Origin: Actinomycetota bacterium
GTDB taxonomy: Bacteria > Actinomycetota > Thermoleophilia > Gaiellales > F1-60-MAGs149
DNA: 64,000 bases
Direction of reading: 5' to 3'
NCBI GenBank assembly: GCA_009885805.1
Contig: VFJZ01000028.1
Location: forward strand, 62,001-126,000
A program made the translations under genes and the position numbers. Numbering within the stretch: position 1 is the stretch's first letter; every line of letters begins with the position of its first letter. Of this stretch, positions 1 to 12,695 are shown one piece after another. Below the pieces are notes generated by a model. It saw only the letters and a program-made list of their open reading frames with translations. It was not told where the DNA came from and searched no databases.

Positions 1-883
1 CAACCTGCAGCCGTCCGAGATCGGCAAGCTCGTCGTCGCCGTCGCGCTCGCCGCGGTCGTCGCCGACGCCAGCCGCGAGAAGGCCGGCACCTGGCGGGCG
101 TTCGGCCGGTCGCTGGTGGTCGTGGCCGTGCCCGGCGTGCTCGTGTTCCTGCAGCCCGACCTCGGCACGGCGATCGTCTACGGCGCGATCTGGATCTCGA
201 TCGTCTTCGTAGCGGGCGCTCGCCTTGTGCAACTCCTCACGGTCGGCGTCGGCGCGATCATCGTGGTCCTGCTGGTGTTCGACCTCCTGCCCGCGTCAGG
301 CATCCGCGTGCTGCAGCCCTACCAGCAGGCCCGTCTCACCGCCTTCCTCGATCCCGGCTCCGCCAGCGACGCCGCCTACCAGGCGCAGCAGTCGAAGATC
401 GCGATCGGCTCCGGCGGTCTGTCCGGGAAGGGGCCGGAGGGCGCCGCGGTCTCGCTGCAGGGGTTCCTCCCGGAGCGGCACACGGACTTCATCTTCGCCG
501 TCGCCGCCGAGCAGCGCGGGTTCGTCGGCGCTGCCCTGCTGCTCGGCCTCTACATCCTGGTGGTGTGGCGTGCGGTGCGAACGATCACGCGGGCGGCGAC
601 GCTGTACGAGAGCCTGGTCGCCGCCGGCATCGCCGGCATGTTCGTCGTGCAGATCTTCGTCAACATCGGGATGACGCTCGGGATCATGCCGACGACGGGA
701 ATTCCGTTGCCCTTCATGACCTACGGTGGCTCGAACACGCTCACGAACCTGATGGCCGCCGGCCTCCTGCTCGCGATCCAGGTCCGCGGATCCGCACCGG
801 AACCGGCGCGCCTGGCCGACCACGAACTGGTGCGGGGGTCGCGACGCGCGCTGTCGGCGTCGAGTGCTGCGACACGGCAATAG
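1..883 (+). CDS. rodA: RodA/FtsW (SEDS) peptidoglycan glycosyltransferase, 3' part
   Basis: The gene enters from the left edge and reads in frame from base 2 to a TAG at 881-883, so only its C-terminal part is present. SEDS proteins polymerise lipid II glycan in the membrane with a class B PBP partner. Visible hallmarks are 'QPSEIGK' at the edge, 'LQPDLGTAIVY', 'PERHTDFIFAVAAEQRG' and the terminal 'MPTTGIPLPFMTYGGS'; the last two are typical of RodA and FtsW. Several hydrophobic segments are present. The tail after the last membrane segment is Ala/Arg-rich and unconserved. The family is certain; RodA is preferred over FtsW because this gene cluster usually follows mre/rodA. Confidence 0.9.
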   Translation, partial: NLQPSEIGKLVVAVALAAVVADASREKAGTWRAFGRSLVVVAVPGVLVFLQPDLGTAIVYGAIWISIVFVAGARLVQLLTVGVGAIIVVLLVFDLLPASGIRVLQPYQQARLTAFLDPGSASDAAYQAQQSKIAIGSGGLSGKGPEGAAVSLQGFLPERHTDFIFAVAAEQRGFVGAALLLGLYILVVWRAVRTITRAATLYESLVAAGIAGMFVVQIFVNIGMTLGIMPTTGIPLPFMTYGGSNTLTNLMAAGLLLAIQVRGSAPEPARLADHELVRGSRRALSASSAATRQ

Positions 884-916
884 CGCGGCGTTCGGAGGCC
901 CCTGGATCGTCCTACG

Positions 917-960
917 CGTGACGGCGATGCGGTCGAAGGGCTGACCGCATCGCCGTCACG
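917..960. terminator. Strong hairpin after rodA, likely bidirectional terminator
   Basis: A perfect 18-bp inverted repeat (917-934 with 943-960) encloses an 8-base loop. A second short perfect stem (977-985 with 988-996, two bases between) follows. There is no T-tract, which is common for high-GC actinobacterial terminators. It lies between the rodA stop and the converging cupredoxin gene and could end both transcripts. Nothing else is seen in 884-1072. Confidence 0.65.
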
Positions 961-1072
961 CTGCGGCGACCGTCTGCTGCGCCGCAAGCGGCGCAGCCGC
1001 GGGCTTCGCGGGTGACTCGCCCGCCGCTCGCGGAAGGCTCCTCGACCACAACGCTCTTTCCGTGCCGAACCA

Positions 1073-1444
1073 CTACCCGATCCTGAGGATCGTCTCCATC
1101 CCGAGCGCGCGATGGTCGGCGATGGTGCAGATGAGGCGGTACCGGCCCGGGGCCAGTCGCAGGCCGAACGTCGCCGTGTCGCCGGGCGCGACGAAGACGG
1201 TGTGGAGGACGCGCGTGCCGGTGAGCAGCGTCAGGTCGTGGTCGTCCTCGCCGCGGTTGCGCACGGTCAGGCGGACCCGGCCCTGGCCGAGCCGAGGCCG
1301 GCCGAGGTCGATGGCGTACTCCGTCTCGACGATCTCCGTCGCCTGCGGCAGGTGCGGCGGCGGCGGCAGCGTCGTGCGCCGGACGGCCGCTCCCGCCGGT
1401 ATCGCCACCAGCACCGCGAGCGCGAGCGACAGGGCCAGTCTCAT
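1073..1444 (-). CDS. Secreted small cupredoxin-like protein
   Basis: This 123-residue protein has an N-terminal signal peptide ending near 'PAGAA' and a single beta-rich domain. The arrangement His69 ('GEDDHDL'), Cys106, His111 and Met116 ('CTIADHRALGM') matches the type 1 copper ligand set of plastocyanin/azurin-like proteins. An exported blue-copper electron carrier or copper-binding protein is therefore likely. Its ATG overlaps the stop of the DUF1501 gene (ATGA), so it is the last gene of a translationally coupled four-gene operon. The partner redox enzyme is not apparent here. The fold call is well supported; copper binding is inferred from the ligands. Confidence 0.75.
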   Translation of the reverse strand: MRLALSLALAVLVAIPAGAAVRRTTLPPPPHLPQATEIVETEYAIDLGRPRLGQGRVRLTVRNRGEDDHDLTLLTGTRVLHTVFVAPGDTATFGLRLAPGRYRLICTIADHRALGMETILRIG

Positions 1445-2943
1445 CGGAACATCGAGCGGCCGAGCGCCGGCACCGACGCGAAGTCGGGCATGACCGCGGC
1501 CGGGTCACCGCCGAGCCAGTCGGAGATGATCGCCGCGTAGACCGAACGGAAGTCCGTCTCCACCTTGACGTTCCCGCGCGCGTCCAGGTCGGCGATGTTC
1601 GGGGGTGCCGACGCCAGTCCGCCGCGGACGGCCGACCCGACGAGGCCCATCAGGCCGCCGGCGCCGTGGTCGGTGCCGTTCGAGGCGTTCTCGCGGACGC
1701 GTCGGCCGAACTCCGAGTAGACGAGCGTGACGACGTCCTGTTCGACGCCGCGGGCGGACAGGTCGGCCTGGAAGGCAGACAGGCAGGTCGCGAGCTCCTT
1801 CAGCTGACGGTCGTGGCGGACGTTCTGGCCGGCGTGCGTGTCGAATGCGCCCCAGTGCACCGTGACGATCCGCGTCCCGAGTCGTGCGCCGAGGACGACG
1901 GCTGCTGTCTGCAGCTTGGCCGCGAGCGGCGAATTCGCCGGGTAGTTCGCGCCGGCGGCGGCGGCCGCGAGCGGTGCGAGCTGTCCGATCACGTCGGTCG
2001 CGAGGCCATAGGTCGAGCGGACGCGGTCCAGGTGCGTGTTGGACGCCCGGCGGGGGACGCCGCTCAGGGCGCGCATCGTCGCGGCCGGGTCGATGCCCGC
2101 GTACTCCGGGCCGCCCGGGCCGGGATACGTTCCGGTAGGGCCGGCGAGGAAGAAGCCGACGGATGGGATCGACGCAATCGAGGCGACGGGCGCTCCGGCC
2201 GTCCGCATCGCCTTCGACAGCGCCTCGTCGATCGACACGCCCTGCAGCGGATTCGTCTGCGAGCCGTAGAGGTCGAGCCAGCGGCCGGCCCAGCCGGTGC
2301 TCATCGGCTTCAGCGCACCGGCGAACCAGAAGTCGGAGCTCGAGAAGTGGGACAGGTTGGGCGGCTGGTAGTCGGCCGCGGGGAACAGCGCCAGGCGGGC
2401 GTCGGGGTTGGCGGGATTGCCGCTTCCCCAGAGGACGTCGAGCCCCTGGTTCGCAACCGTGATGTCGCCGCCGTTCGCGGCCGACACGGCGCAGTTGGCG
2501 AGGCCCCAGTCGGAGAGGCCGGCGAGCGGTCCGGCGACGCCGACGCGCGTGCCGACGGTGGGGCCGAGCGGCCGGTGCACGTCCGGGCGGTGGGTGGCGA
2601 GCAGCGAGTGTTGGGCACCGAGCGGCACCATCGTGCCGAGGCCGTCGTTGCCACCCGCCAGGTAGAGCAGGACGACCGCTCGTTGCGGCCCCGCCGCCGC
2701 CTCGGCGATCGCCGCCTCCCAGATCGACTCCCAGGGCAGTCGCGTCGAGCCGTAGACGGTCGCCAGCGCGGCGACGCCGTTCCGCAGCAGCCGCCGGCGC
2801 GACAGCGTGCGCGCGTCGGAGCCCTGCGGAAACCCGAGCAGCGCCTCGGCCGGCAACGGCATCGTCCCCAGCGGTCGCTGGTCGCGCACCCGCGCGAGTT
2901 CGATCTCCTCGCACTCCGTGCAGCGGACGGCGTCGTCGTCCAT
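1441..2943 (-). CDS. DUF1501 family protein, Tat-exported
   Basis: This 500-residue protein starts at the ATG that overlaps the DUF1800 stop (TGATG). Residues around 45-65 hold a twin-arginine signal ('SRRRLLRNG' followed by a hydrophobic stretch), indicating folded export. The remainder is DUF1501, a family related in fold to sulfatases/alkaline phosphatases and usually encoded next to DUF1800. Recognisable pieces are 'LYLAGGNDGLGTMVPL' and, near the C-terminus, 'EFGRRVRENASNGTDHGAGG', the conserved DUF1501 signature. The biochemical role of DUF1501/DUF1800 pairs is unknown. A longer in-frame start exists upstream but lies inside DUF1800 and adds an Arg/Gly-rich segment unlike the family. 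Confidence 0.88.
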   Translation of the reverse strand: MDDDAVRCTECEEIELARVRDQRPLGTMPLPAEALLGFPQGSDARTLSRRRLLRNGVAALATVYGSTRLPWESIWEAAIAEAAAGPQRAVVLLYLAGGNDGLGTMVPLGAQHSLLATHRPDVHRPLGPTVGTRVGVAGPLAGLSDWGLANCAVSAANGGDITVANQGLDVLWGSGNPANPDARLALFPAADYQPPNLSHFSSSDFWFAGALKPMSTGWAGRWLDLYGSQTNPLQGVSIDEALSKAMRTAGAPVASIASIPSVGFFLAGPTGTYPGPGGPEYAGIDPAATMRALSGVPRRASNTHLDRVRSTYGLATDVIGQLAPLAAAAAGANYPANSPLAAKLQTAAVVLGARLGTRIVTVHWGAFDTHAGQNVRHDRQLKELATCLSAFQADLSARGVEQDVVTLVYSEFGRRVRENASNGTDHGAGGLMGLVGSAVRGGLASAPPNIADLDARGNVKVETDFRSVYAAIISDWLGGDPAAVMPDFASVPALGRSMFR

Positions 2944-4325
2944 CACATCACCTGTCCGTCTGGTCCGCCGAGGATGAGTGCGCGCAGCGCGTACTGGCGA
3001 CCGAGGCGCTGCGCCGGCGTGCCGCCGGCCATCTGCGCCGCCGCGGCGCGGAGGATCGCCTTCGACCCCTCCGCCAGCCATGGTCGCCCGAGGCCCGTGT
3101 GGGCTCGGCGGAACGCCGCGGCGGCCGTTTCACCGGCTTCGTCCGGCGGCGCCGGCGCGACGTGCAGGCAGCGGATCGCGAAGTCGAAGCGCGCCTGTGC
3201 GGACGTCGTCGTCAGCCAGGACGCGCCGCCCTCCCAGCCGGCGACGTTTGGCGGGTTGAACGGTAGCTGTCCCATCCGCCGCAGGCCGACCGTCTGCCAG
3301 ACGTCCAGGAGTGACGCACGCGTCGCCTTGACCACGCCGAGGCCGTAGACGACCGGCGGCTTGATCATGTTCGGCTCGCCGATCGACTCGAAGATCTCCG
3401 GCCGCAGCAGGATCGCGCGCACGAGGGGACGGATCAGGAGCCTGCCGCCGGCGGTGTAGGTCGCGGCCAGCTTCGCGACGGTCTCCTCGGCGGGCGGCTG
3501 GAAAATGAATTCGCTCCACAACTGCCGGACGATGAAGTCGGCGTGGATCGGCCGGGCGAGGACGACGTCGGTGGCGGTGCGCAGGTCGAACGCGCCGCTC
3601 TGGCCGAGGATCTCCTTGACGCCGGCGTCGAAGCGGGTGGGATCGAACCGACCGACGGGCGTGGCCGGGTCGGTCAGGTCGATGCGCCAGCCCGAGAACG
3701 CGCGCGCGAGTTCGCCGACGTCGCGCTCGCTGTAGTTCGGCACGCCCTGCGGATCGGTGACGCCGAGGCAGAACAGCTCCATGAACTCGCGGCCGTAGTT
3801 CTCGTTCGGCCGGCCGACGATGTTGCTCTCGCCATCGAGGTACTTGAGCATCGCGGGGCTTTCCCCGACGAGGTAGGCCAGCTCTCGGAAGCTCGCGTCG
3901 GGATACGTGGCGAGGTCGGCGAAACGGTGCAGGAGCTTGCCGTACTGGTGTGCGAAGGTGAGCGTGACGCCGTCGTCGAGCGAGATCGTCCAGTGCTTCG
4001 ACCAGAAGAAGGTGAGGCGCTCGACGAGGGGGTTCGTCGTGTGCCGCATCCGGTCGAGCCAGTCGAGTACGAGTTCGGTCTCCGACGCCAGCGGGTCGAT
4101 CGGCACGCCGAGGCGCATCGGCGGCGGTGCCGGCGTCTTCACGGCCGGCGTCCGCGTCAGCCAGTTGACGGCGTCGAGCCAGCGGCGCCCGACGAGGCGC
4201 TTGCGCTCATCCGCGGACGGTCCGAAACCGGCTCGCCAGAGCAGGCGATCGGCGTGGGCCTCGCCGAGCCGTAGCGACGGGCGTAGCGGCCCGGCGGGCG
4301 GACGGCTCAGGCGCCGCCGGCTCAA
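2943..4325 (-). CDS. DUF1800 family protein
   Basis: This is a 460-residue protein of the DUF1800 family. The N-terminal 'HADRLLWRAGFGPSADE' matches the family's 'HlLrRagFG' start region, and the middle holds 'ENYGREFMELFCLGV', the best conserved family block. No signal peptide is visible, in contrast to its DUF1501 partner. The start is a TTG overlapping the stop of the GH26-like gene (TTGA), and its own stop overlaps the DUF1501 start, so the three are translationally coupled. Function unknown. DUF1800/DUF1501 pairs are widespread in Planctomycetes, Bacteroidetes and some Actinobacteria. Confidence 0.88.
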   Translation of the reverse strand: MSRRRLSRPPAGPLRPSLRLGEAHADRLLWRAGFGPSADERKRLVGRRWLDAVNWLTRTPAVKTPAPPPMRLGVPIDPLASETELVLDWLDRMRHTTNPLVERLTFFWSKHWTISLDDGVTLTFAHQYGKLLHRFADLATYPDASFRELAYLVGESPAMLKYLDGESNIVGRPNENYGREFMELFCLGVTDPQGVPNYSERDVGELARAFSGWRIDLTDPATPVGRFDPTRFDAGVKEILGQSGAFDLRTATDVVLARPIHADFIVRQLWSEFIFQPPAEETVAKLAATYTAGGRLLIRPLVRAILLRPEIFESIGEPNMIKPPVVYGLGVVKATRASLLDVWQTVGLRRMGQLPFNPPNVAGWEGGASWLTTTSAQARFDFAIRCLHVAPAPPDEAGETAAAAFRRAHTGLGRPWLAEGSKAILRAAAAQMAGGTPAQRLGRQYALRALILGGPDGQVM

Positions 4326-5230
4326 CGCCGGCAGGCCCCGGTCAGGTAGTCGGTGACGGCGGCGGTCGTCTCGGCCGAATCGCGCAGGCGGAAGTCGCCG
4401 TTCGGCTCGTCGACGTCGTACAGGACGACGCCCTTCAGGCGCGGCATCGCGTCGCCGGCCGCCTTCAGCTGCACGAGCCAGTCGGCCTTGGAGCCGCCGA
4501 CGGCCGTCGTGCCCGTCTCCGCGATCCAGAACGGCTTGCGCGCGAGTGCGTCGATGGTGTCGTAGGCCTCGCCGAACAGCGTCTGCGGCAGCGACCAGTC
4601 GAGATCCTCCGTGACGCCGAAGTTGTACGCCACGGCACCGACGAGGTCGACCTGTGATCTCCCCGGGAAGTAGTCACGGAATTCGTTGGTCGCCTCCTCG
4701 GGCACGGGGCGGGCGTAGGCCGTCCACATCAGGCGCACCGGCTTGATGCCAGCCGCGCGGCGCACCACGCGGCGGACGTGCTTCCACGCCCGCACGTATC
4801 GTGGCCCGCCCTGGCGCGACACCGGCCCGGACCAGGCATACCAGGGCGTGTTGGGCTCGGGCATGGGCCGGAGGATCGCCGAGGGCTTCAGCCCTCGGAT
4901 CTGCCGCACGAGGCGCCGCAGGGCGATGTCGTAGCGGCCCTGCGCGACGCGCGTGAGGGTCGCCGGCCGATCGTCCGGCTGCCACGCGACGATCAACTGC
5001 AGGCCGCGGCGCTTCACCAGGTCGATCACGTTCGGGCTGACGAGTTCGTTCGCTCCGACGTAGACCGAGACGGTGGTCAGACCGGGCCCGACCGCGGCCG
5101 AGAGCGTCTTGTGGCCGCTGACCGGACGGTCCTGGTAGACGCCGACGCGGAGGCAGGCCGTGGCGGACGCCGGCGAGGCGACGATCGCCGCGAGCGCGAC
5201 GAGGATCGATGCGCGCACCCTGCTCACCAC
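4322..5230 (-). CDS. Secreted GH26-like glycoside hydrolase
   Basis: This 302-residue protein has a signal peptide ('ASILVALAAIVASPASA'). It resembles GH26 (beta-mannanase clan GH-A) enzymes. 'ILRPMPEPNTPWYAWSG' corresponds to the family block 'RPMHEMNG.WY.W' around the acid/base Glu, with the usual His replaced by Pro. 'FWIAETGTT' is a plausible nucleophile block. The substrate would be a beta-linked polysaccharide or cell-wall glycan, but this is inference. Two tandem GTG codons lie just after an AGGAAG ribosome-binding sequence, and the first is taken as start. It is the promoter-proximal gene of the operon leading to DUF1800, DUF1501 and the cupredoxin. Confidence 0.7.
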   Translation of the reverse strand: MVSRVRASILVALAAIVASPASATACLRVGVYQDRPVSGHKTLSAAVGPGLTTVSVYVGANELVSPNVIDLVKRRGLQLIVAWQPDDRPATLTRVAQGRYDIALRRLVRQIRGLKPSAILRPMPEPNTPWYAWSGPVSRQGGPRYVRAWKHVRRVVRRAAGIKPVRLMWTAYARPVPEEATNEFRDYFPGRSQVDLVGAVAYNFGVTEDLDWSLPQTLFGEAYDTIDALARKPFWIAETGTTAVGGSKADWLVQLKAAGDAMPRLKGVVLYDVDEPNGDFRLRDSAETTAAVTDYLTGACRR

Positions 5231-5323
5231 CTTCCTGAACCGGAATCGTAGGGTAGGCCACCGATCTGGATGTCAGCGATCTGTAAGGGATGCGTGGGGG
5301 TAGTGGGTCAGGCTGAACCTTGC

Positions 5324-5760
5324 TCACGTGTCTTTCGGCAGCGTCCGCGCCGGAATCGGGGTCGCTTCGGCGGCGGCGATGAGCGCAACGATCTCGTCCA
5401 GTGTCCAGACGTGATCGGCGACGCCCGCTGCGACGGCGGGCGTCGTGCGGAGCGTCTGGTGGACACGGCAGAAGTCGTAGTGCATGAAGAGCAAGCTGAC
5501 GGCGGCGGCGAGGTTCTCGACCTTCTTCGAGAACCCGTTCGTCATGCGCGTGAAGCGCCGCATCCCCATCCGCATCGTAAGGTTCTGCCGCTCGACGTAG
5601 CTCGTCGAGATCGCGTTGCCGCTGACGACGCGGGCGCTGACTGATGCACGAGCTGCGCGTCGTCGACGCCGCCCTTGAAGGCGTTCGCGACGGCGCTCAG
5701 GTACGCGCGGTGACCGTCGGTGGTGAAGTGCACGCGGTGACGGAGACACGAGACGACGTC
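5324..5760 (-). mobile_element. IS1-type DDE transposase remnant (frameshifted, internally deleted)
   Basis: Two pieces of one transposase lie in different frames. The upstream piece (about 5760-5640) contains 'VHFTTDGHRAYLSAVANAF' and '...VDDAQLVHQ'. The downstream piece (about 5640 to the stop at 5324) contains 'ISTSYVERQNLTMRMGMRRF', 'TNGFSKKVENLAAAVSLLF' and 'HQTLRTTPAVAAGV', typical of the C-terminal half of IS1-type transposases. Compared with the family, the segment between 'QLV' and 'STS' is missing and the frame changes. The N-terminal half is absent; the fragment ends against an MFS fragment on the opposite strand. No terminal inverted repeats were found. It is a dead relic and evidence of past insertion here. 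Confidence 0.82.
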
Positions 5761-5770
5761 CTGCGTCGGC

Positions 5771-6055
5771 TCCCGCGGCCTCGCCGACGCGCAGGAGTTC
5801 ATGCGCCTGACGCGCTGGGTGTCGGCCATCCCGGCGCCGGTCAAGCTCCTCGTCGCCCCGCCGCTGATGGGCGTGCCGTTCCTGCTCGTGAACGCCAACG
5901 GCTCGGTGCCCGCGATCGCACGCGTCATCGCCCTCTTCGTGACCAGCGAGATGCTCTGGGCGCCGACCTCGCAGGCGGTCGTGGCCGACCTCGCCCCGGC
6001 TGACATCCGCGAGCGCGGCCCTCCCTCGTCGGCGTCTATGGGGCATCCGGTCGCC
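5771..6055 (+). pseudogene. MFS transporter fragment
   Basis: A segment of about 90 codons encodes 'SVPAIARVIALFVTSEMLW' and 'APTSQAVVADLAPADIRER', the loop typical of MFS drug/H+ antiporters ('GEML.PTSQA.VADLAP...RGRY.GVYG'). The final part 'LVGVYGAS' is present but only after a frameshift near 6022. No start, no other transmembrane segments and no complete gene exist. It abuts the transposase relic on the left and overlaps the last codons of the AbiEii gene on the right, so both edges look like recombination junctions. Confidence 0.7.
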
Positions 6056-6989
6056 ACGTCCGCGTGGTGGGGTCCCAGGTGAGTTTGTCTCGTGAGCGAG
6101 CGAGGGCTGGGGCGAGGAACGTGGTGGCGCGTTCGAGGGCTTGGTCGAATGTCAGCGGGGAGTTGCGGGTTGCCCCGGGCCAGCGCTGTCGCCAGTCGGC
6201 GGTTTGGTCGGGAGTCAGTGCCAGCGATTCCGGTAGCGGACGGTCCAGCGTCCCGCGCGTGTGGCGGAGTGCCTGTTCCTTCTCGAACTCCGCGAGGAGG
6301 TCGGCCAGTCGGATGCCGGCTTGCTGGTCGCTGATCATGGCGATATCGACGAGGTCGCGGGCACGGGTCGAGTGATGCCGTCCGGGCCCGTGGTGCTCGA
6401 ACATCGCACAGGTTTTCTGAGCGATCTGCGGCGCGAGCGGGAGGGTCATCAGGCCGGGGATCGCATCGACGGCGGAGAGGCCGGTCAGTGCTGATCGTGG
6501 CTGGAGCGGCTCGCTGAGGACATCAAGCGCGGGCTGTGCGAGGTCGATGTTGAAGCTCGTCCAGTCGGTCGTGCCGATCTGCGTCGTGACGCGGACGCTG
6601 ACGGTCGGATCGCCGTCCGTGGTGGAGTCGGTGATGACGCGTCCGACCTGGAACGTGATGAAGTCGTCGAGGTCGACCGCGCACGCCTCGCGCAGGCGTT
6701 CCACGGCGAGTGCGTGTCCGCCGGCCTCCAGGATGTAGGTGATGTCGATGTCGTCGCTTGTCCGGTTCGGGTCGAGCCGGAGGACCAAGGCGACGCCGCC
6801 TTTGACGACCCACCCGCCGGGATGGCGCGCGAACAGTCGCGCCAGCAGCCGGCGGAAGGCGATCTCCTGCACGCGGAGCTGCCGCTCGGCTGGCGGGTAG
6901 CGGTTCCGGATCAGCTGGCTGAGCCCGCGACGGGTCGCCTCGGGACTCGTCCACGGCCAGGGCGGCCGGTCGTCTACGGGCTCCGCCAT
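6036..6989 (-). CDS. abiEii: AbiEii/AbiGii-family toxin (nucleotidyltransferase), type IV toxin-antitoxin
   Basis: This 317-residue protein has the MNT-like nucleotidyltransferase motifs of AbiEii toxins. 'WVVKGGVALVLRL' (about residues 60-72) is followed by 'RTSDDIDITY' (76-85), which supplies the acidic pair. 'QIAQKTCAMFEHH', followed by 'RARDLVDIAMI', matches the family's C-terminal 'K..A...R...RDl.Di' helix. AbiEii toxins block growth by modifying cellular RNA targets and can abort phage infection. The ATG lies 2 bases after the stop of the upstream antitoxin gene. The frame extends far upstream, but that part overlaps the antitoxin. The gene looks intact although it ends inside a junction with pseudogene DNA. 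Confidence 0.88.
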   Translation of the reverse strand: MAEPVDDRPPWPWTSPEATRRGLSQLIRNRYPPAERQLRVQEIAFRRLLARLFARHPGGWVVKGGVALVLRLDPNRTSDDIDITYILEAGGHALAVERLREACAVDLDDFITFQVGRVITDSTTDGDPTVSVRVTTQIGTTDWTSFNIDLAQPALDVLSEPLQPRSALTGLSAVDAIPGLMTLPLAPQIAQKTCAMFEHHGPGRHHSTRARDLVDIAMISDQQAGIRLADLLAEFEKEQALRHTRGTLDRPLPESLALTPDQTADWRQRWPGATRNSPLTFDQALERATTFLAPALARSRDKLTWDPTTRTWRPDAP

Positions 6990-6991
6990 GT

Positions 6992-7654
6992 CTAGGGCCG
7001 ATCGCCGTCCGGGAAGGTCAGTGCGAGCAGTGGCTCGATCTCGGCGCGGACTCGGGCATGGCTGCCGCTGCGCCGGTCGCCGGCCGCGAGCAGTTCGCGG
7101 CCGGCGGCGGCACGCGACGGCCATGACTCGAGGATCGCACGACGGAGGTAGTCGCGCTCGTAGCGGGCGGCGATCAGATCGGTCACCGTTCGCGCCGGCG
7201 TCGTCACCGGCAGCCGGAAGGCTGGCGGCGCCATCAGCCACTCCCAATCGCGAGGATCGAGCTGCGACGTATGGAGCCGCAGCTCACGTCGTTGCGAGCG
7301 CGGGCGGCGGACGGTGAACTCCGGCAGTCCCGGGATGATCGAGCCAAGACCGCGCAGGGCGGCCGCGCTGGCGTGCGACACGACGGCTTTCGGCTCGTGC
7401 TCGCCGCGCGTCCAGGGCAGCACCTCGCCATCCAGTGCCAGCCAGGCGGCGAACAGCTCATCGTTCGGCGAGTGCGGCCGGCCGAAAGCCATCGCGTACA
7501 CGCGCGGCAAGAATCGCTCAAGCCGATTCCGCCGGGCCAACTCCACCATCGTCTTGGACGTCACCCCGACAGCCCGCGCCTGGTGGGTCGTCACGAATCC
7601 GCCCTGGTCGACGGCCACGTTGTTCAGCAGATGCAAGGCGTCGTCCGACTGCAT
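6992..7654 (-). CDS. abiEi: AbiEi-family antitoxin, type IV toxin-antitoxin
   Basis: This 220-residue protein begins with a winged helix-turn-helix domain of the AbiEi N-terminal type ('GGFVTTHQARAVGVTSKTM' and 'RNRLERFLPRVYAM', about residues 17-58). It continues with the AbiEi C-terminal domain, including 'PVTTPARTVTDLIA'. AbiEi proteins repress their own operon and neutralise AbiEii without contacting it, which defines type IV systems. Gene order (antitoxin first) and the 2-base spacing to the toxin are as expected. The pair sits among transposon debris, suggesting acquisition by transfer. Confidence 0.87.
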   Translation of the reverse strand: MQSDDALHLLNNVAVDQGGFVTTHQARAVGVTSKTMVELARRNRLERFLPRVYAMAFGRPHSPNDELFAAWLALDGEVLPWTRGEHEPKAVVSHASAAALRGLGSIIPGLPEFTVRRPRSQRRELRLHTSQLDPRDWEWLMAPPAFRLPVTTPARTVTDLIAARYERDYLRRAILESWPSRAAAGRELLAAGDRRSGSHARVRAEIEPLLALTFPDGDRP

Positions 7655-7702
7655 CCGGATAAGTTACACGATTTACCTCACAGCAAGACATTTCATCGAA
7701 AT
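7655..7702 (-). promoter_or_regulatory. AT-rich leader of abiE operon, possible operator
   Basis: The bases just upstream of the antitoxin ATG are much richer in A/T than the surroundings. On the minus strand a TTGCTG and a TAACTT occur, but their spacing is short (14). A small perfect inverted repeat (ATTTC-ATC-GAAAT, 7690-7702) could be half of an AbiEi operator. No ribosome-binding site is visible, so a leaderless or near-leaderless mRNA is possible. Confidence 0.3.
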
Positions 7703-7757
7703 CTCAGCAGCTACCGGGAGAGCGCTCCTTCCGTCGCGCTCCGCCGGGGACGTGGCT

Positions 7758-7780
7758 GTGGGCACAATCTGCCGTGCGGG
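7758..7780 (+). repeat. 23-bp direct repeat, copy 1 of 2
   Basis: This segment matches 8082-8104 with 21 of 23 identical bases, in the same orientation and 324 bp apart. The shared core is CAATCTGCCGTGCGGG. It lies in the non-coding zone between the AbiE operon and the conserved gene block. It could be a recombination scar, an attachment-site repeat or a small dispersed repeat. Confidence 0.6.
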
Positions 7781-8081
7781 CACCCGGGTGGGCCTGGGAG
7801 CGCGCCTTTTGATGGAAGCGGCTACCGAGGGGGCTTGCGCTACCGAAGGGTGTGGTGCTTCGGTGACAGCTGCCTGCTCAGGGTCACTCCTCGGCTTCGA
7901 GTGCGGCGAGCGCGGAGTCGACGGACATCTGAACCTGGCTGGTCGCGGGCGTCGGTTCCCCGGTTGCCGGGCCGGTGGGCTGGTGGCCGACCAGGAGCAA
8001 GGCCCCGCCGGGCGCGACGCCCGTGAACGGCGTCTACCCGGACTCGTCCGCGAACACCGACGCTCGGCTGAGAGCGCGTTC

Positions 8082-8104
8082 GTGGGTGCAATCTGCCGTG
8101 CGGG
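8082..8104 (+). repeat. 23-bp direct repeat, copy 2 of 2
   Basis: Second copy of the 23-bp direct repeat at 7758-7780, with two differences (T and G replacing C and A at repeat positions 6 and 7). It ends 87 bases before an orphan tRNA 3' end. Confidence 0.6.
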
Positions 8105-8190
8105 AGCAACTCTGGGGGACACGGAGCGTGGCTCTCCAGCGCGGTTCGTGACGTTGCAGACGCAGGCGTGGTCGGTGTTCGTCCGCGATC

Positions 8191-8214
8191 GAAGGTTCGA
8201 ATCCTTCCGCCCCA
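8191..8214 (+). pseudogene. tRNA 3'-end remnant (T-arm plus acceptor strand)
   Basis: A perfect T-arm (GAAGG, TTCGAAT, CCTTC at 8191-8207) is followed by CGCCCCA, which has the form of a tRNA acceptor 3' strand. No matching 5' acceptor, D-arm or anticodon arm with tRNA spacing lies upstream. Integrative elements commonly recombine at tRNA 3' ends and leave such copies as attachment sites. The position, at the border between accessory DNA and the conserved block, fits that reading. The parent tRNA is not in this window. Confidence 0.55.
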
Positions 8215-8370
8215 GGGCTTCGGGGCTGTCGACTCGGTTGGGTCCTCGGGCTCGAGCAGTCCGGGCGCCGCTGAAGCCTCCGACAGGGCAGGGGCGGACC
8301 GCAAGCCGGCGGGGTGGAGAAGGCGCTACGATCGGCGGCGGCGTGATCCAGCCGGTAGCGTTCGTCACGG

Positions 8371-9120
8371 ATGGACCGCCGCCACGCCTTCGCGCTGCTG
8401 CGGCTCGTGCAGGACGACGACGAGCCGCCGCGCCGGCCACTCGCGCTCGTCGGGCGTGGCGCGTTCGTCGACGCCTTCGCCCGCACGCTGCTGGCGGGCG
8501 GCGGCGATCGCCGGGCGCTCGCGCCGCTGCCAGCAGCCGCACCTGCCGAGCTCGCCGGCTGCGCTGCCGTGGTCGCGTGCGGTCTCTCGCTCGCACAGGC
8601 TCGGCTGGTTGCGGCTGCCCGGCGGCCGTGGGTGGCGGCCCTCGCGCCCGGCGACGACCGCCATCTGTTCGGCGCCCTGCCGCACCTCGGCGCCTGGAAC
8701 GCCGTGCCGCCACTGGACGACGGCACGCCCGACGTCGCCACCGCTCTCGCGCGGCTCGCCGCTCGCCTCGAACGACTCGACGCGGTCGTGCTTGCGCAGC
8801 GGCTGCCGGCGCTGGTACCGGCGACGACTCGTGCGCGTGAGGCCGTTGCGGCGCGCCGTGCGGGCGGTCTCGCACTCGCCGGCCGCCCGGGTGGATCGAT
8901 CACGCTGACCCAGGCCCTCGCGCTCATCGACGACGCTCGCTCGCGAGGCTCGGCCGCTGGCCCGGCGCGCCTGCCCGAGATCGCGACGGCGATCGGCGCC
9001 GGGCTGCTGGCCCGCGAGGCGGGCCGCCGGCTGCCCTCCCGGTTCGTCCGCGCCGCGCTCGCCTACGGCGTCACCCGGGCGGTCCTGCGCTGCTCGCGGG
9101 CTATGCTTCCCTCCCGATGA
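8371..9120 (+). CDS. DUF697/YcjF-like protein
   Basis: This is a 249-residue Ala-rich protein. Residues 30-160 look like a small alpha/beta domain ('ALVGRGAFVDAFARTLLAGG' near the start). The C-terminal 75 residues ('ITLTQALALIDDARSRG', 'ARLPEIATAIGAGLLAREAG', 'FVRAALAYGVTRAV') follow the pattern of DUF697, in which an Ile/Ala-rich amphipathic segment ends in 'vkaaiAYggT.A'. No nucleotide-binding motif is evident. Its TGA overlaps the ATG of the radical SAM relic, so it heads the rne operon. Function unknown; the family assignment is tentative. Confidence 0.55.
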   Translation: MDRRHAFALLRLVQDDDEPPRRPLALVGRGAFVDAFARTLLAGGGDRRALAPLPAAAPAELAGCAAVVACGLSLAQARLVAAARRPWVAALAPGDDRHLFGALPHLGAWNAVPPLDDGTPDVATALARLAARLERLDAVVLAQRLPALVPATTRAREAVAARRAGGLALAGRPGGSITLTQALALIDDARSRGSAAGPARLPEIATAIGAGLLAREAGRRLPSRFVRAALAYGVTRAVLRCSRAMLPSR

Positions 9121-9662
9121 CGGTTCCCGCGATCGAGGCGAAGATCGAGATGGTCCTCGCCACGGTGCAGAAGCCGTCCCGCTCCATCGGCGGCGAGGCG
9201 AAACGCGATCGTCAAGCCTCCGGCGGCCGTTCGCGTCGCCCTCTGCTTCGCCGCCGCGTACGCGGTCGTTCCGTCTCCGGCGCGATCTTCTCGCGGGCGA
9301 GCGTCGAGGTGAGCATGCTCGAGGGCGCGCTCGGTCGCGGTGATCGGCGGACCGCCGACATCATCGAGACGGCGTGGCGCGGCGGCGCGCGGTACGACGC
9401 CTGGTCCGAGCACCACGTCGAAGACATCTGGCGGCGCGCCTTCGCGGCGCATGACCGCTCCATCGAGGACGAGGCGACGCGCGAGCGCGATGCGCTCGAA
9501 CCGCTGCCGTGGGATCACGTGCGCAGCGGCGTCACCAAGGAGTTCCTGCTCGACGAGTGGTGGGCCTCTCGCGCCGAGCGCGCGACCGGTGACTGCCGTT
9601 TCGACGGGTGCACGGACTGCGGGGCCTGCAGTGGCCCTGTCCGGAACCGGCTGGTGTCGTGA
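9117..9662 (+). pseudogene. TIGR03960-type radical SAM protein with core domain deleted and a frameshift
   Basis: The first 27 codons ('EMVLATVQKPSRSIGGE') match the N-terminus of the radical SAM protein normally encoded just before DUF2344. In the +1 frame the match continues as 'NAIVKPPAAVRVALCFAAAY', so one extra base near 9200 breaks the frame. From about codon 63 the sequence resumes in the original frame with the family's C-terminus: 'LEGALGRGDRRTADIIETAW', 'PWDHVRSGVTKEFLLDEWW' and a terminal 'CRFDGCTDCGACSG'. The whole central part, including the CxxxCxxC iron-sulfur motif of the SAM barrel, is missing. Such a protein cannot be a radical SAM enzyme. An assembly collapse is possible but would not by itself explain the frameshift. 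Confidence 0.8.
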
Positions 9663-9693: not shown

Positions 9694-10347
9694 GTGAAGG
9701 TCTCGTTCCGCCTTGCGGTCACCGGCCGTGCCCGGTTCCTGTCGCACCTCGAGTGTGTCGACGTGCTCCTGGCCGCGTTCCGGCGTGCCGGCTACACGGT
9801 CGCGCTGTCACAGGGCCTGCGCCCGAAGCCGGTCATCTCCCTCGCCGTCGCGAGGGCCGTCGGCGTCGCGTCGCTCGATGAGCTCGTGACGGTGGAGATC
9901 GTCGGCACACCGGATCTGGACGAGATCCAGGAGCGCGTCGCAGCAACCCTGCCGCGTGGACTCCAGATCCGCGCTGCGGCCGAGGCAGCGGGGACGCCGC
10001 GTCCCGTCTCGGCCCGGTACTTGATCGAGCTCGACGCCGCACCCGCGGTCGTCGAGCGCGCGGCGGCGCTGTACGCCGAGGCGGAGGTAGCGCTTGTCGA
10101 GCGCGTCTCGCCGAAGCGCCGTAAGGTCGTCGACGTGAAGGCGTACGCGCCTTCCGTCGAGCTTGTCGCCGGCGGTTTCGAGGTCGAGGTCGCCGTCTCA
10201 CAGGAAGGTTCCGCCCGTCCGGAGGAGGTGGCGCGCGCGCTCGCAGAGCTCGCCAGCGCCGATCTCCGCGTGACGGGCGTGACGAGAATCGCATTGCGCG
10301 TCGAGCCGGGCAGAGTTCCGGTCGGCGCGCCGGGAGAACGCCAATGA
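9694..10347 (+). CDS. DUF2344 (TIGR03936) protein, radical SAM-linked
   Basis: This 217-residue protein starts at the GTG at 9694. 'FRLAVTGRARFLSHLECVDVLL' region and 'ALSQGLRPKPVISLAVARAVG' match the DUF2344 family, in which the product is encoded beside, or fused to, a TIGR03960 radical SAM protein ahead of RNase E/G. Its role is unknown; association with ribosome or tRNA maturation has been suggested from gene order only. The stop overlaps the rne start (ATGA). It remains intact although its usual partner gene just upstream is broken. Confidence 0.88.
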   Translation: MKVSFRLAVTGRARFLSHLECVDVLLAAFRRAGYTVALSQGLRPKPVISLAVARAVGVASLDELVTVEIVGTPDLDEIQERVAATLPRGLQIRAAAEAAGTPRPVSARYLIELDAAPAVVERAAALYAEAEVALVERVSPKRRKVVDVKAYAPSVELVAGGFEVEVAVSQEGSARPEEVARALAELASADLRVTGVTRIALRVEPGRVPVGAPGERQ

Positions 10348-12695
10348 TGAAGAAGATCCTGATCAGCGCCGACCCGATCGAGACACGGGTGGCGATCGTC
10401 GAGGACAACGTCGTCGTCGAGACCTACATCGAGCGTGTCACACGCCGCTCGCTGCTCGGCAACGTCTATCTCGGTCGGGTGGACAACGTGCTGCCCGGCA
10501 TGGAGGCGGCGTTCATCGACGCCGGCCTGCCGAAGAACTGCTTCCTCTACGTCGACGAGATCGTGATCCCCGAACTGGACGACCGCGAGCGTCGCAAGAA
10601 GAAGATCGAGCAGCTGATCAAGAACGGGCAGAGCCTGCTCGTCCAGGTGACCAAGGACCCGATGGGCACGAAGGGCGCGCGGGTGTCGATGGACGTCTCG
10701 CTGGCCGGGCGCTTCCTCGTCTACTCGCCCGACGGCAAGGGCTTCGGCGTCTCGAAGCGATTGCCGGATGGCGAGCGCGATCGCCTCCGCGACCTCGTCA
10801 AGCAGCTGACGCCGAAGGGCGGCGGCGGCCTGATCGTGCGCACCGCCGCGCGGGGCGCCGAGCGCGCCGAACTCGATCGCGACCTGGAGCTGCTCGAGCA
10901 GCTCTGGGCCCAGATCCAGGCGGCGGCGACGAAGAAGGGCGTCCGCGCTCCGGCGATGATGCACGAGGAGGTCGATCTGGCGCTCGAGATGGTGCGCGAC
11001 GACCTCCGCGTCGAGGTCGACGAGGTCGTCACCGACGACGAGGCCACGTACGAGCGGATCCGCGCCTACGTCGAGGCCCACTCCCCGGAGTTCCTGCCCC
11101 GCATCAAGCTCCATACGGCCCAGACGCCGCTGCTTCGGCGCTACCAGGTCGAGGACGCGATCCGCTCGACGCTGCACCGCCGCGTCGACCTGCCGTCGGG
11201 CGGCTACCTGCTGTTCGACTACGCCGAGGCGTTCACGATCATCGACGTCAACACGGGCCGGTTCGTCGGCAAGTCGCGGCTCGAGGACACGATCCTCGCG
11301 AACAACCTCGAGGCGGCGCGTGAGGTCGTCCGGCAGCTGCGGCTGCGTGACCTCGGCGGCATGATCGTGATCGACTTCATCGACATGGCGTCGCAGAAGA
11401 ACCGCGATGCCGTGATCGCCTGCCTGCAGGAGGAGTTGAAGCGCGACCGCTCGAAGGTCTACCTGACGTCGATCTCCCCCCTCGGCCTGGTCGAGATGAC
11501 GCGCCAGAACGTCACCGACGGCGTGCGCGAGGTGATGAGTTCCACCTGCCCCACGTGCAACGGGGAGGGGCGCGTCGTCAGCAACGAGACGATCGCGATC
11601 GAGAATCTGCGCACGCTACGTCGGCACGCGTCGCTCTCCGACAAGCAGGCGTTCCTCGTCGAGCTCGAGCCACGGATCGCGTCGCTGATGGTCGGTCAGG
11701 GTGGCTCGCGTCTCGCCGAGCTCGAGCGGTCGACGGGCAAGCACTTCTCGCTGGTCGGGGTCGATGGCGTGCCCGTCGAACGCTGCAACGTGACGCGTGA
11801 GGGCACCGCCTCGGACATCCTCGCGGAGGCGATGCCGGTCGCATCCGGCGCCGAGATCGAGATCGAGATCGCGGAGCCGCACATGTTCCAGGCAGCCGAC
11901 GCGGTCGCCTTCCTCGAGGGCGGCTTCCGCATCGTCGTCGCCGGCGCCGGCCCGTATCTCGGGGAGCGACACACGGTACGGATCGGCCACGTCGACCGGC
12001 ACGAGGCGCACGCCGAACTCGTCTCCGCGACCCCGGTCACGGAGGCGGAGATGCTGGCGATGATCGATCGCCGCACCGACATCCACGAACCGGACCGCCG
12101 CCCCGGCGAGCGCGTCGACCTCGAGGATCGACGTCGCAGCCGGCAGCGGCGACCGCCGAAGAAGGCCGCTCCGACCGGTGGGACGACGAACGAGGTCAGT
12201 GACGACGCGGCCGATGACGGCGCGCCGGCCGAGCCGCGGCCACCGCGGAGCCGCAATCGCCAGCGACCGGCGAGGACCGCGGCGGCGGCCGGCACCGAGG
12301 CCGTCGCGAACGGCACCACGGAGGCTGCCGAGCGGGAGGTCGTCACCGCTGACGAGCCCGCCGCCGGCGACGCCGCCGCCAAGCGCCGACGCCGCGGCCG
12401 TCGCGGCGGTAAGCGGCATCGCAAGCCGGGCACGGTCGCCGCTGGCGTCGACGCGACCGTCGCCGCCGAGCCCGTCGCCGTAGCGGTGGCCGAGCCGGCT
12501 GCCGTCGCCGCGGCGCCGAGGCGTCGCCGTCGCACCCGCGCCGAGATCGACGCGGCTGCCGCTGCCGCGCCGCCGCCCGCGCCCGCACCGGCGTCTACGC
12601 CTGCGCCTGCGCCTGCGCCCGCTCCGGCCGCGGCAGAGAAGCCGAAGCGCCGACGCGGCGTCCTGAAGCGCCTGATCGGGTCCGACGACGACTGA
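10344..12695 (+). CDS. rne: Ribonuclease E/G family endoribonuclease
   Basis: This 783-residue endoribonuclease processes rRNA and turns over mRNA. The S1 domain spans about residues 35-125. The catalytic DNase I-like region carries Asp301 ('TIIDVNTGRFVGK') and Asp344 ('GGMIVIDFIDM'), which bind Mg2+. The zinc-link Cys402/Cys405 ('TCPTCNGEGRV') joins protomers. From about residue 590 on, the C-terminal tail is Arg/Ala/Pro-rich and low complexity, ending in an 'APAPAP'-like stretch; such tails often act as RNA- or partner-binding scaffolds. An acidic 'GSDDD' closes the protein. The length with a long tail favours the RNase E style over the short RNase G. It is translationally coupled to DUF2344. 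Confidence 0.95.
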   Translation: MMKKILISADPIETRVAIVEDNVVVETYIERVTRRSLLGNVYLGRVDNVLPGMEAAFIDAGLPKNCFLYVDEIVIPELDDRERRKKKIEQLIKNGQSLLVQVTKDPMGTKGARVSMDVSLAGRFLVYSPDGKGFGVSKRLPDGERDRLRDLVKQLTPKGGGGLIVRTAARGAERAELDRDLELLEQLWAQIQAAATKKGVRAPAMMHEEVDLALEMVRDDLRVEVDEVVTDDEATYERIRAYVEAHSPEFLPRIKLHTAQTPLLRRYQVEDAIRSTLHRRVDLPSGGYLLFDYAEAFTIIDVNTGRFVGKSRLEDTILANNLEAAREVVRQLRLRDLGGMIVIDFIDMASQKNRDAVIACLQEELKRDRSKVYLTSISPLGLVEMTRQNVTDGVREVMSSTCPTCNGEGRVVSNETIAIENLRTLRRHASLSDKQAFLVELEPRIASLMVGQGGSRLAELERSTGKHFSLVGVDGVPVERCNVTREGTASDILAEAMPVASGAEIEIEIAEPHMFQAADAVAFLEGGFRIVVAGAGPYLGERHTVRIGHVDRHEAHAELVSATPVTEAEMLAMIDRRTDIHEPDRRPGERVDLEDRRRSRQRRPPKKAAPTGGTTNEVSDDAADDGAPAEPRPPRSRNRQRPARTAAAAGTEAVANGTTEAAEREVVTADEPAAGDAAAKRRRRGRRGGKRHRKPGTVAAGVDATVAAEPVAVAVAEPAAVAAAPRRRRRTRAEIDAAAAAAPPPAPAPASTPAPAPAPAPAAAEKPKRRRGVLKRLIGSDDD

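Follow-up and report, generated by a model that had tools for sequence, protein, structure and literature searches.

Loss of the catalytic core from a TIGR03960 radical SAM gene beside an intact DUF2344 partner: a probable pseudogene in early decay

Introduction

Pairs of a B12-binding radical SAM gene (TIGR03960) and a DUF2344 gene, located beside a gene for RNase E/G, are widespread, although a search of the literature on TIGR03960, TIGR03936, DUF2344 and COG5011 found no functional study of the pair. Lineages with a fresh loss of the enzyme are natural knock-outs, and the locus described here raises the question of what such a loss means for the DUF2344 gene left behind. A sequence-only reading of this DNA had proposed that either the lineage has lost the enzyme while keeping its partner or the assembly collapsed at this point; and that a real loss would show DUF2344 to be able to act without its radical SAM partner. 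The locus lies in a window of 64,000 nucleotides, the whole stretch of DNA that was analysed (G000:C21:62001-126000), from a genome designated G000 with an assembly of 101 contigs that is 95.2% complete. All positions given without a contig are those of the window.

Results

Positions 9117-9662 form an open reading frame of 181 codons (ATG at 9117, stop at 9662), the product of which matches the NCBIfam profile TIGR03960 (6e-31, 107.6 bits) over profile positions 471-598 of 605 only; this is below the curated cut-off for the family, a whole-protein score of 462.3 bits. A tblastn search with the full-length protein of G001, the nearest relative of G000, placed three separate pieces within 9117-9659: G001 residues 1-33 at 9117-9215; residues 29-50 at 9202-9267 in a different frame; and residues 465-588 at 9288-9659 with 79% identity. 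The intact TIGR03960 gene of G001 then served as the reference for lesions in a DNA alignment, and this agreed with tblastn that about 45 N-terminal and about 120 C-terminal codons of a TIGR03960-type gene remain, as had been proposed. The N-terminal B12-binding half is thereby reduced to these 45 or so codons, partly out of frame, while the C-terminal segment with its conserved cysteines adjoins DUF2344. On these alignments, 9117-9662 is what is left of a TIGR03960 B12-binding radical SAM gene. The features of the locus are as follows.

1-883, plus strand: 3' part of rodA (G000:C21:61735-62787), which relatives carry immediately 5' of the radical SAM gene
884-9116, no strand assigned: about 8.2 kb of other DNA, with DUF1501/DUF1800 genes, a GH26-like gene, IS1-like transposase debris, AbiEi/AbiEii genes and an ORF at 8371-9120
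9117-9200, plus strand: N-terminal remnant in the original frame, MTVPAIEAKIEMVLATVQKPSRSIGGEA (tblastn and DNA alignment to G001, 80% DNA identity)
9201, plus strand: +1 frameshift by one extra base (AAA versus AA in relatives), a site on which DNA alignments to G001, G007, G014 and G011 agree
9202-9262, plus strand: N-terminal continuation, out of frame with the ATG, NAIVKPPAAVRVALCFAAAYA (tblastn, DNA alignment)
9262-9263, plus strand: junction of deletion 1, 531 nt lost (G001 1192-1722), comprising most of the B12-binding half (DNA alignment)
9274-9275, plus strand: -1 frameshift, one base lost and the original frame restored (DNA alignment)
About 9275-9312, plus strand: internal island AIFSRASVEV, ancestrally directly 5' of the radical SAM cysteines MRGCTRGCRFC (DNA alignment)
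9312-9313, plus strand: junction of deletion 2, 690 nt lost (G001 1774-2463), comprising the radical SAM barrel in full, CxxxCxxC included (DNA alignment)
9313-9662, plus strand: C-terminal remnant with the cysteine motif DCRFDGCTDCGAC intact (TIGR03960 positions 471-598; 2/58 invariant columns changed)
9694-10347, plus strand: partner gene DUF2344/TIGR03936, intact from its GTG at 9694 to its stop (profile matches; predicted structure TruA-like)
10344-12695, plus strand: rne/rng (RNase E/G), intact, overlapping the DUF2344 stop (ATGA)

By comparison with G001 the gene carries four lesions with a net 1,221 nt missing, and DNA alignments to other relatives show the same lesions. The sequence-only reading had envisaged one deletion of about 1.2 kb together with a one-base shift separating the N-terminal parts. 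The size was right but the number was not, as there are two deletions (531 and 690 nt) with an island between them; the shift lies at 9201, with a second, compensating loss of one base at 9274/9275. Because the +1 and -1 changes compensate and both large deletions are multiples of three, the frame is open throughout 9117-9662, with about 25 codons in the middle of the ORF consisting of out-of-frame sequence. The central barrel with its iron-sulfur cysteines has indeed gone, deletion 2 at 9312/9313 having taken the cluster motif CxxxCxxC (CTRGCRFC in G001). Microhomology was looked for at the deletion junctions and none was clear; nor were there clear repeats at these sites.

A genome-wide family search across all G000 contigs found neither a second TIGR03960 copy nor a displaced core, and when the part of the G001 protein that G000 lacks was searched in the genome the only match was the known N-terminal piece. 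The search for a full-length copy elsewhere, suggested as a check on the original reading, therefore returned remnant pieces only, and an intact copy in the unassembled 5% or so of the genome is unlikely. Downstream, the claim that DUF2344 and rne are intact and coupled holds, both being open and joined by their ATGA overlap. The DUF2344 product scores 117.6 bits against TIGR03936 (cut-off 71.9; positions 3-207 of 209) and 89.1 bits against PF10105, and its start lies 31 nt beyond the stop of the remnant.

The adjacency of rodA and the radical SAM gene is evident in the loci of G009, G012, G013 and G015, with a like upstream ORF layout in other relatives; in G001, rodA was not recognised in the approximately 1 kb available upstream, though the radical SAM gene is intact. 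In G000, the DNA between rodA and the remnant includes IS1-like transposase debris beside a probable AbiEi/AbiEii toxin-antitoxin pair (5324-7654). An imperfect 44-nt direct repeat (7737-7780 and 8061-8104) containing CAATCTGCCGTGCGGG is present in a stretch without recognisable genes, and is followed at about 8185-8215 by a sequence resembling a tRNA 3' end, where ARAGORN calls no tRNA. The ORF at 8371-9120 (249 codons) shares an ATGA overlap with the start of the remnant and has no Pfam or NCBIfam match and no match in G001.

Four genomes of the same family but of another genus (G009, G012, G013 and G015) also have a truncated TIGR03960 gene, missing before about position 439 and lying directly after rodA. 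The breakpoint sequence is identical in all four; in trees built from the remnant and from DUF2344 they group together as sister to G014, which has an intact gene; and at least two of the four derive from separate public sequencing projects (matching JAEMTW010000058.1 and CAMAWJ010000003.1). This truncation is clearly biological and, as it is independent of that in G000, loss of the TIGR03960 gene recurs in the family. At the four loci (L067-L070), synonymous divergence (NG86) of the remnant and DUF2344 is 0.02-0.16 compared with 0.17-0.40 for the adjacent rne; given this low divergence beside rne, recombination at the locus is possible. Loci L087 and L090 (CAMDVX010000023.1 and CAMAWJ010000003.1) are titled 'Bifidobacterium breve', yet group here with Thermoleophilia/Actinobacteria metagenome genomes, and these names look wrong.

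The co-occurrence of the two genes was assessed in a class sample of 229 genomes (at least 90% complete) and a phylum sample of 149 genomes (at least 95% complete), with four genomes common to both. DUF2344 was above cut-off in 44 of the 229 class genomes, and 43 of these have a full radical SAM gene (counting G243, where it is split over two contig ends); the exception is G000. The 84 of 149 phylum genomes with DUF2344 are the identical 84 with a TIGR03960 match, and this match extends beyond a remnant in 83, the exception again being G000. Across both samples DUF2344 occurs in 124 distinct genomes: an intact TIGR03960 partner is present in 123 and absent from G000 alone. DUF2344 above cut-off is absent from 185 genomes of the class sample and 65 of the phylum sample, and many related genomes have neither gene of the pair. 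The pair is co-inherited but for G000, and the favoured reading of this exception is a stage of transition.

Several other sequences were noted in these surveys. In family f3, weak DUF2344 matches of 19-28 bits might have been DUF2344 genes without a radical SAM partner, a reading that was rejected because the three inspected loci are TruA. In G116 (G116:C1:281331-283779) the radical SAM gene is in two frames near profile position 503, most of family f7 having fused single frames; this split could be a sequencing error or another early lesion. A 42-residue TIGR03960 fragment occurs at a contig end in G076 (G076:C186:5-130), family f3 being otherwise without the gene, and is possibly contamination or a rare survivor. 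No related sequences were found in a search of viral contigs.

Selection after the loss was examined with branch codon models (own script; GY-type model, F3x4; 15 genomes for DUF2344) and by changes at columns invariant among 16 intact relatives, 58 in the radical SAM C-terminal part and 37 in DUF2344. For the radical SAM C-terminal part, the background omega is 0.078. In the four-genome clade it rises to 0.82, and fixing it at 1 costs 0.2 lnL units, with 8-14 of the 58 invariant columns changed; selection on this remnant as a stand-alone protein was rejected on this value. On the G000 branch omega is 0.13 in the best fit and a value of 1 is worse by 2.6 lnL units, so that neutrality is weakly disfavoured. 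For DUF2344, with a background omega of 0.11, the four-genome clade has an omega of 0.54 (a one-ratio model is worse by 25 units; fixing at 1 costs 3.6), and three to six of the 37 invariant columns are changed in the three readable clade members. All three have lost His18, a residue nearly invariant among 39 DUF2344 sequences from several phyla. The clade's rne is still constrained (omega 0.018). On the G000 branch, DUF2344 has an omega of 0.06, a value of 1 being rejected by 11 lnL units, and one invariant column has changed. Pairwise counts were consistent with these models.

In the four-genome clade, then, the remnant is neutral and DUF2344 is under relaxed selection, both genes decaying, and in G000 the loss looks recent. 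Since the C-terminal part is well conserved in G000, the case for decay there rests on domain loss and not on substitution rates. The conservation of its DUF2344 is a long-branch average, most of the branch probably predating the loss.

The structure of DUF2344 is predicted with a pLDDT of 95.7, and the best solved-structure matches of the model are Pus1/TruA (Foldseek E 6e-7 to 3e-6, TM-score about 0.55). The DUF2344 profile also matches TruA weakly, and DUF2344 is placed in the same Pfam clan as the TruA/Pus1 pseudouridine synthases in the relevant part of PMC7955657. Sequence searches of the PDB with both proteins gave nothing useful. The predicted TruA-like fold hints at an RNA substrate, and DUF2344 is probably a non-catalytic protein that binds an RNA and offers it to the radical SAM enzyme, which would act on it with B12. 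The ORFs beside DUF2344 (rne, then those for a ribosomal protein and obgE) fit a role connected with RNA or the ribosome.

Discussion

We consider it likely from the sequence that the radical SAM gene of G000 is a pseudogene, or nearly so, in early decay, with its partner DUF2344 yet to decay; its lesions are disabling, the catalytic part being gone, and no other copy was found. The original proposal that the lineage has lost the enzyme with its partner still present is borne out by the four lesions, the failure to find a second copy and the independent truncation in four relatives. Relatives show the ancestral order, an intact block of rodA, the TIGR03960 radical SAM gene, DUF2344 and rne. 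On the way to G000 about 8 kb came between rodA and the other genes, with radical SAM decay before or after, and the +1 change, two large deletions and -1 change removed the B12 and radical SAM domains. As the CxxxCxxC cysteines are lost, any catalytic activity of the remnant must presumably be gone. The radical SAM gene is probably the catalytic half of a two-part, RNA-modifying enzyme, which DUF2344, with its predicted TruA/Pus1 fold, would serve as the RNA-binding partner. Without the enzyme, DUF2344 would be expected to lose its function and to decay later, a process that is under way in the sister genus and complete in the many relatives without both genes.

The more far-reaching claim, of a DUF2344 able to work on its own, finds no support: the pair is almost perfectly co-inherited (123/124), and in the four-genome clade, the one lineage in which the loss is old enough to measure, DUF2344 is relaxed and conserved residues have been lost. 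Both the co-inheritance and the relaxation that follows loss point to dependence of DUF2344 on the radical SAM protein, and the G000 case gives no ground for reading DUF2344 as working alone.

An unlikely alternative is that the 181-codon ORF yields a functional mini-protein, the C-terminal cysteine-rich part of which would go on binding DUF2344 or RNA with no radical SAM chemistry involved. The ORF is open despite four lesions, it retains the cysteine motif and 56/58 invariant C-terminal columns, and the G000 DUF2344 is as conserved as in intact relatives; however, a recent loss accounts for this conservation equally well. Moreover, the central 25 or so codons are out-of-frame sequence; the predicted C-terminal structure is only moderately confident (pLDDT 79.5, pTM 0.64) and without a match to any solved fold; and the comparable C-terminal remnant of the sister genus evolves neutrally. 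More doubtful still is that the ORF is a new, selected mini-protein, its C-terminal cysteine domain forming with DUF2344 a non-enzymatic RNA-binding pair.

A misjoined or collapsed contig that hides a full-length gene is very improbable, even though G000 is a draft assembly and the only one available for its lineage. Assembly collapse normally requires a repeat and yields one junction. Four separate lesions, two of them of a single base, junctions without clear repeats and a comparable, independent truncation in four related genomes make a simple collapse unlikely, and no frameshift interrupts the conserved neighbouring genes DUF2344, rne and obgE. We give least credence to the idea that, in the G000 lineage, DUF2344 has taken on a new role that needs no radical SAM protein: the gene is intact and constrained on the G000 branch, but the greater part of this long branch probably lies before the loss, DUF2344 is found alone in no other sampled genome above 90% completeness, and selection on it is relaxed in the sister clade.

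The G000 remnant shares with TIGR03960 (rSAM_fuse_unch) its N- and C-terminal ends and its gene order before DUF2344 and rne, but the B12-binding and radical SAM domains present in the family are deleted. The truncated loci of the four-genome clade likewise keep the C-terminal part beside an open DUF2344; they differ from G000 in having another breakpoint, arising from an independent event with one large 5' loss, and in that both remnant and DUF2344 are already decaying. By score and length the G000 DUF2344 is a full member of TIGR03936/PF10105, but its radical SAM partner in this genome is non-functional. With the TruA/Pus1 pseudouridine synthases it would have a fold in common, according to the predicted structure, but it differs from them in sequence (10-16% identity) and in having no aspartate, the catalytic residue sought, among the invariant or nearly invariant columns of the 39 DUF2344 sequences; for these reasons DUF2344 is probably no pseudouridine synthase itself.
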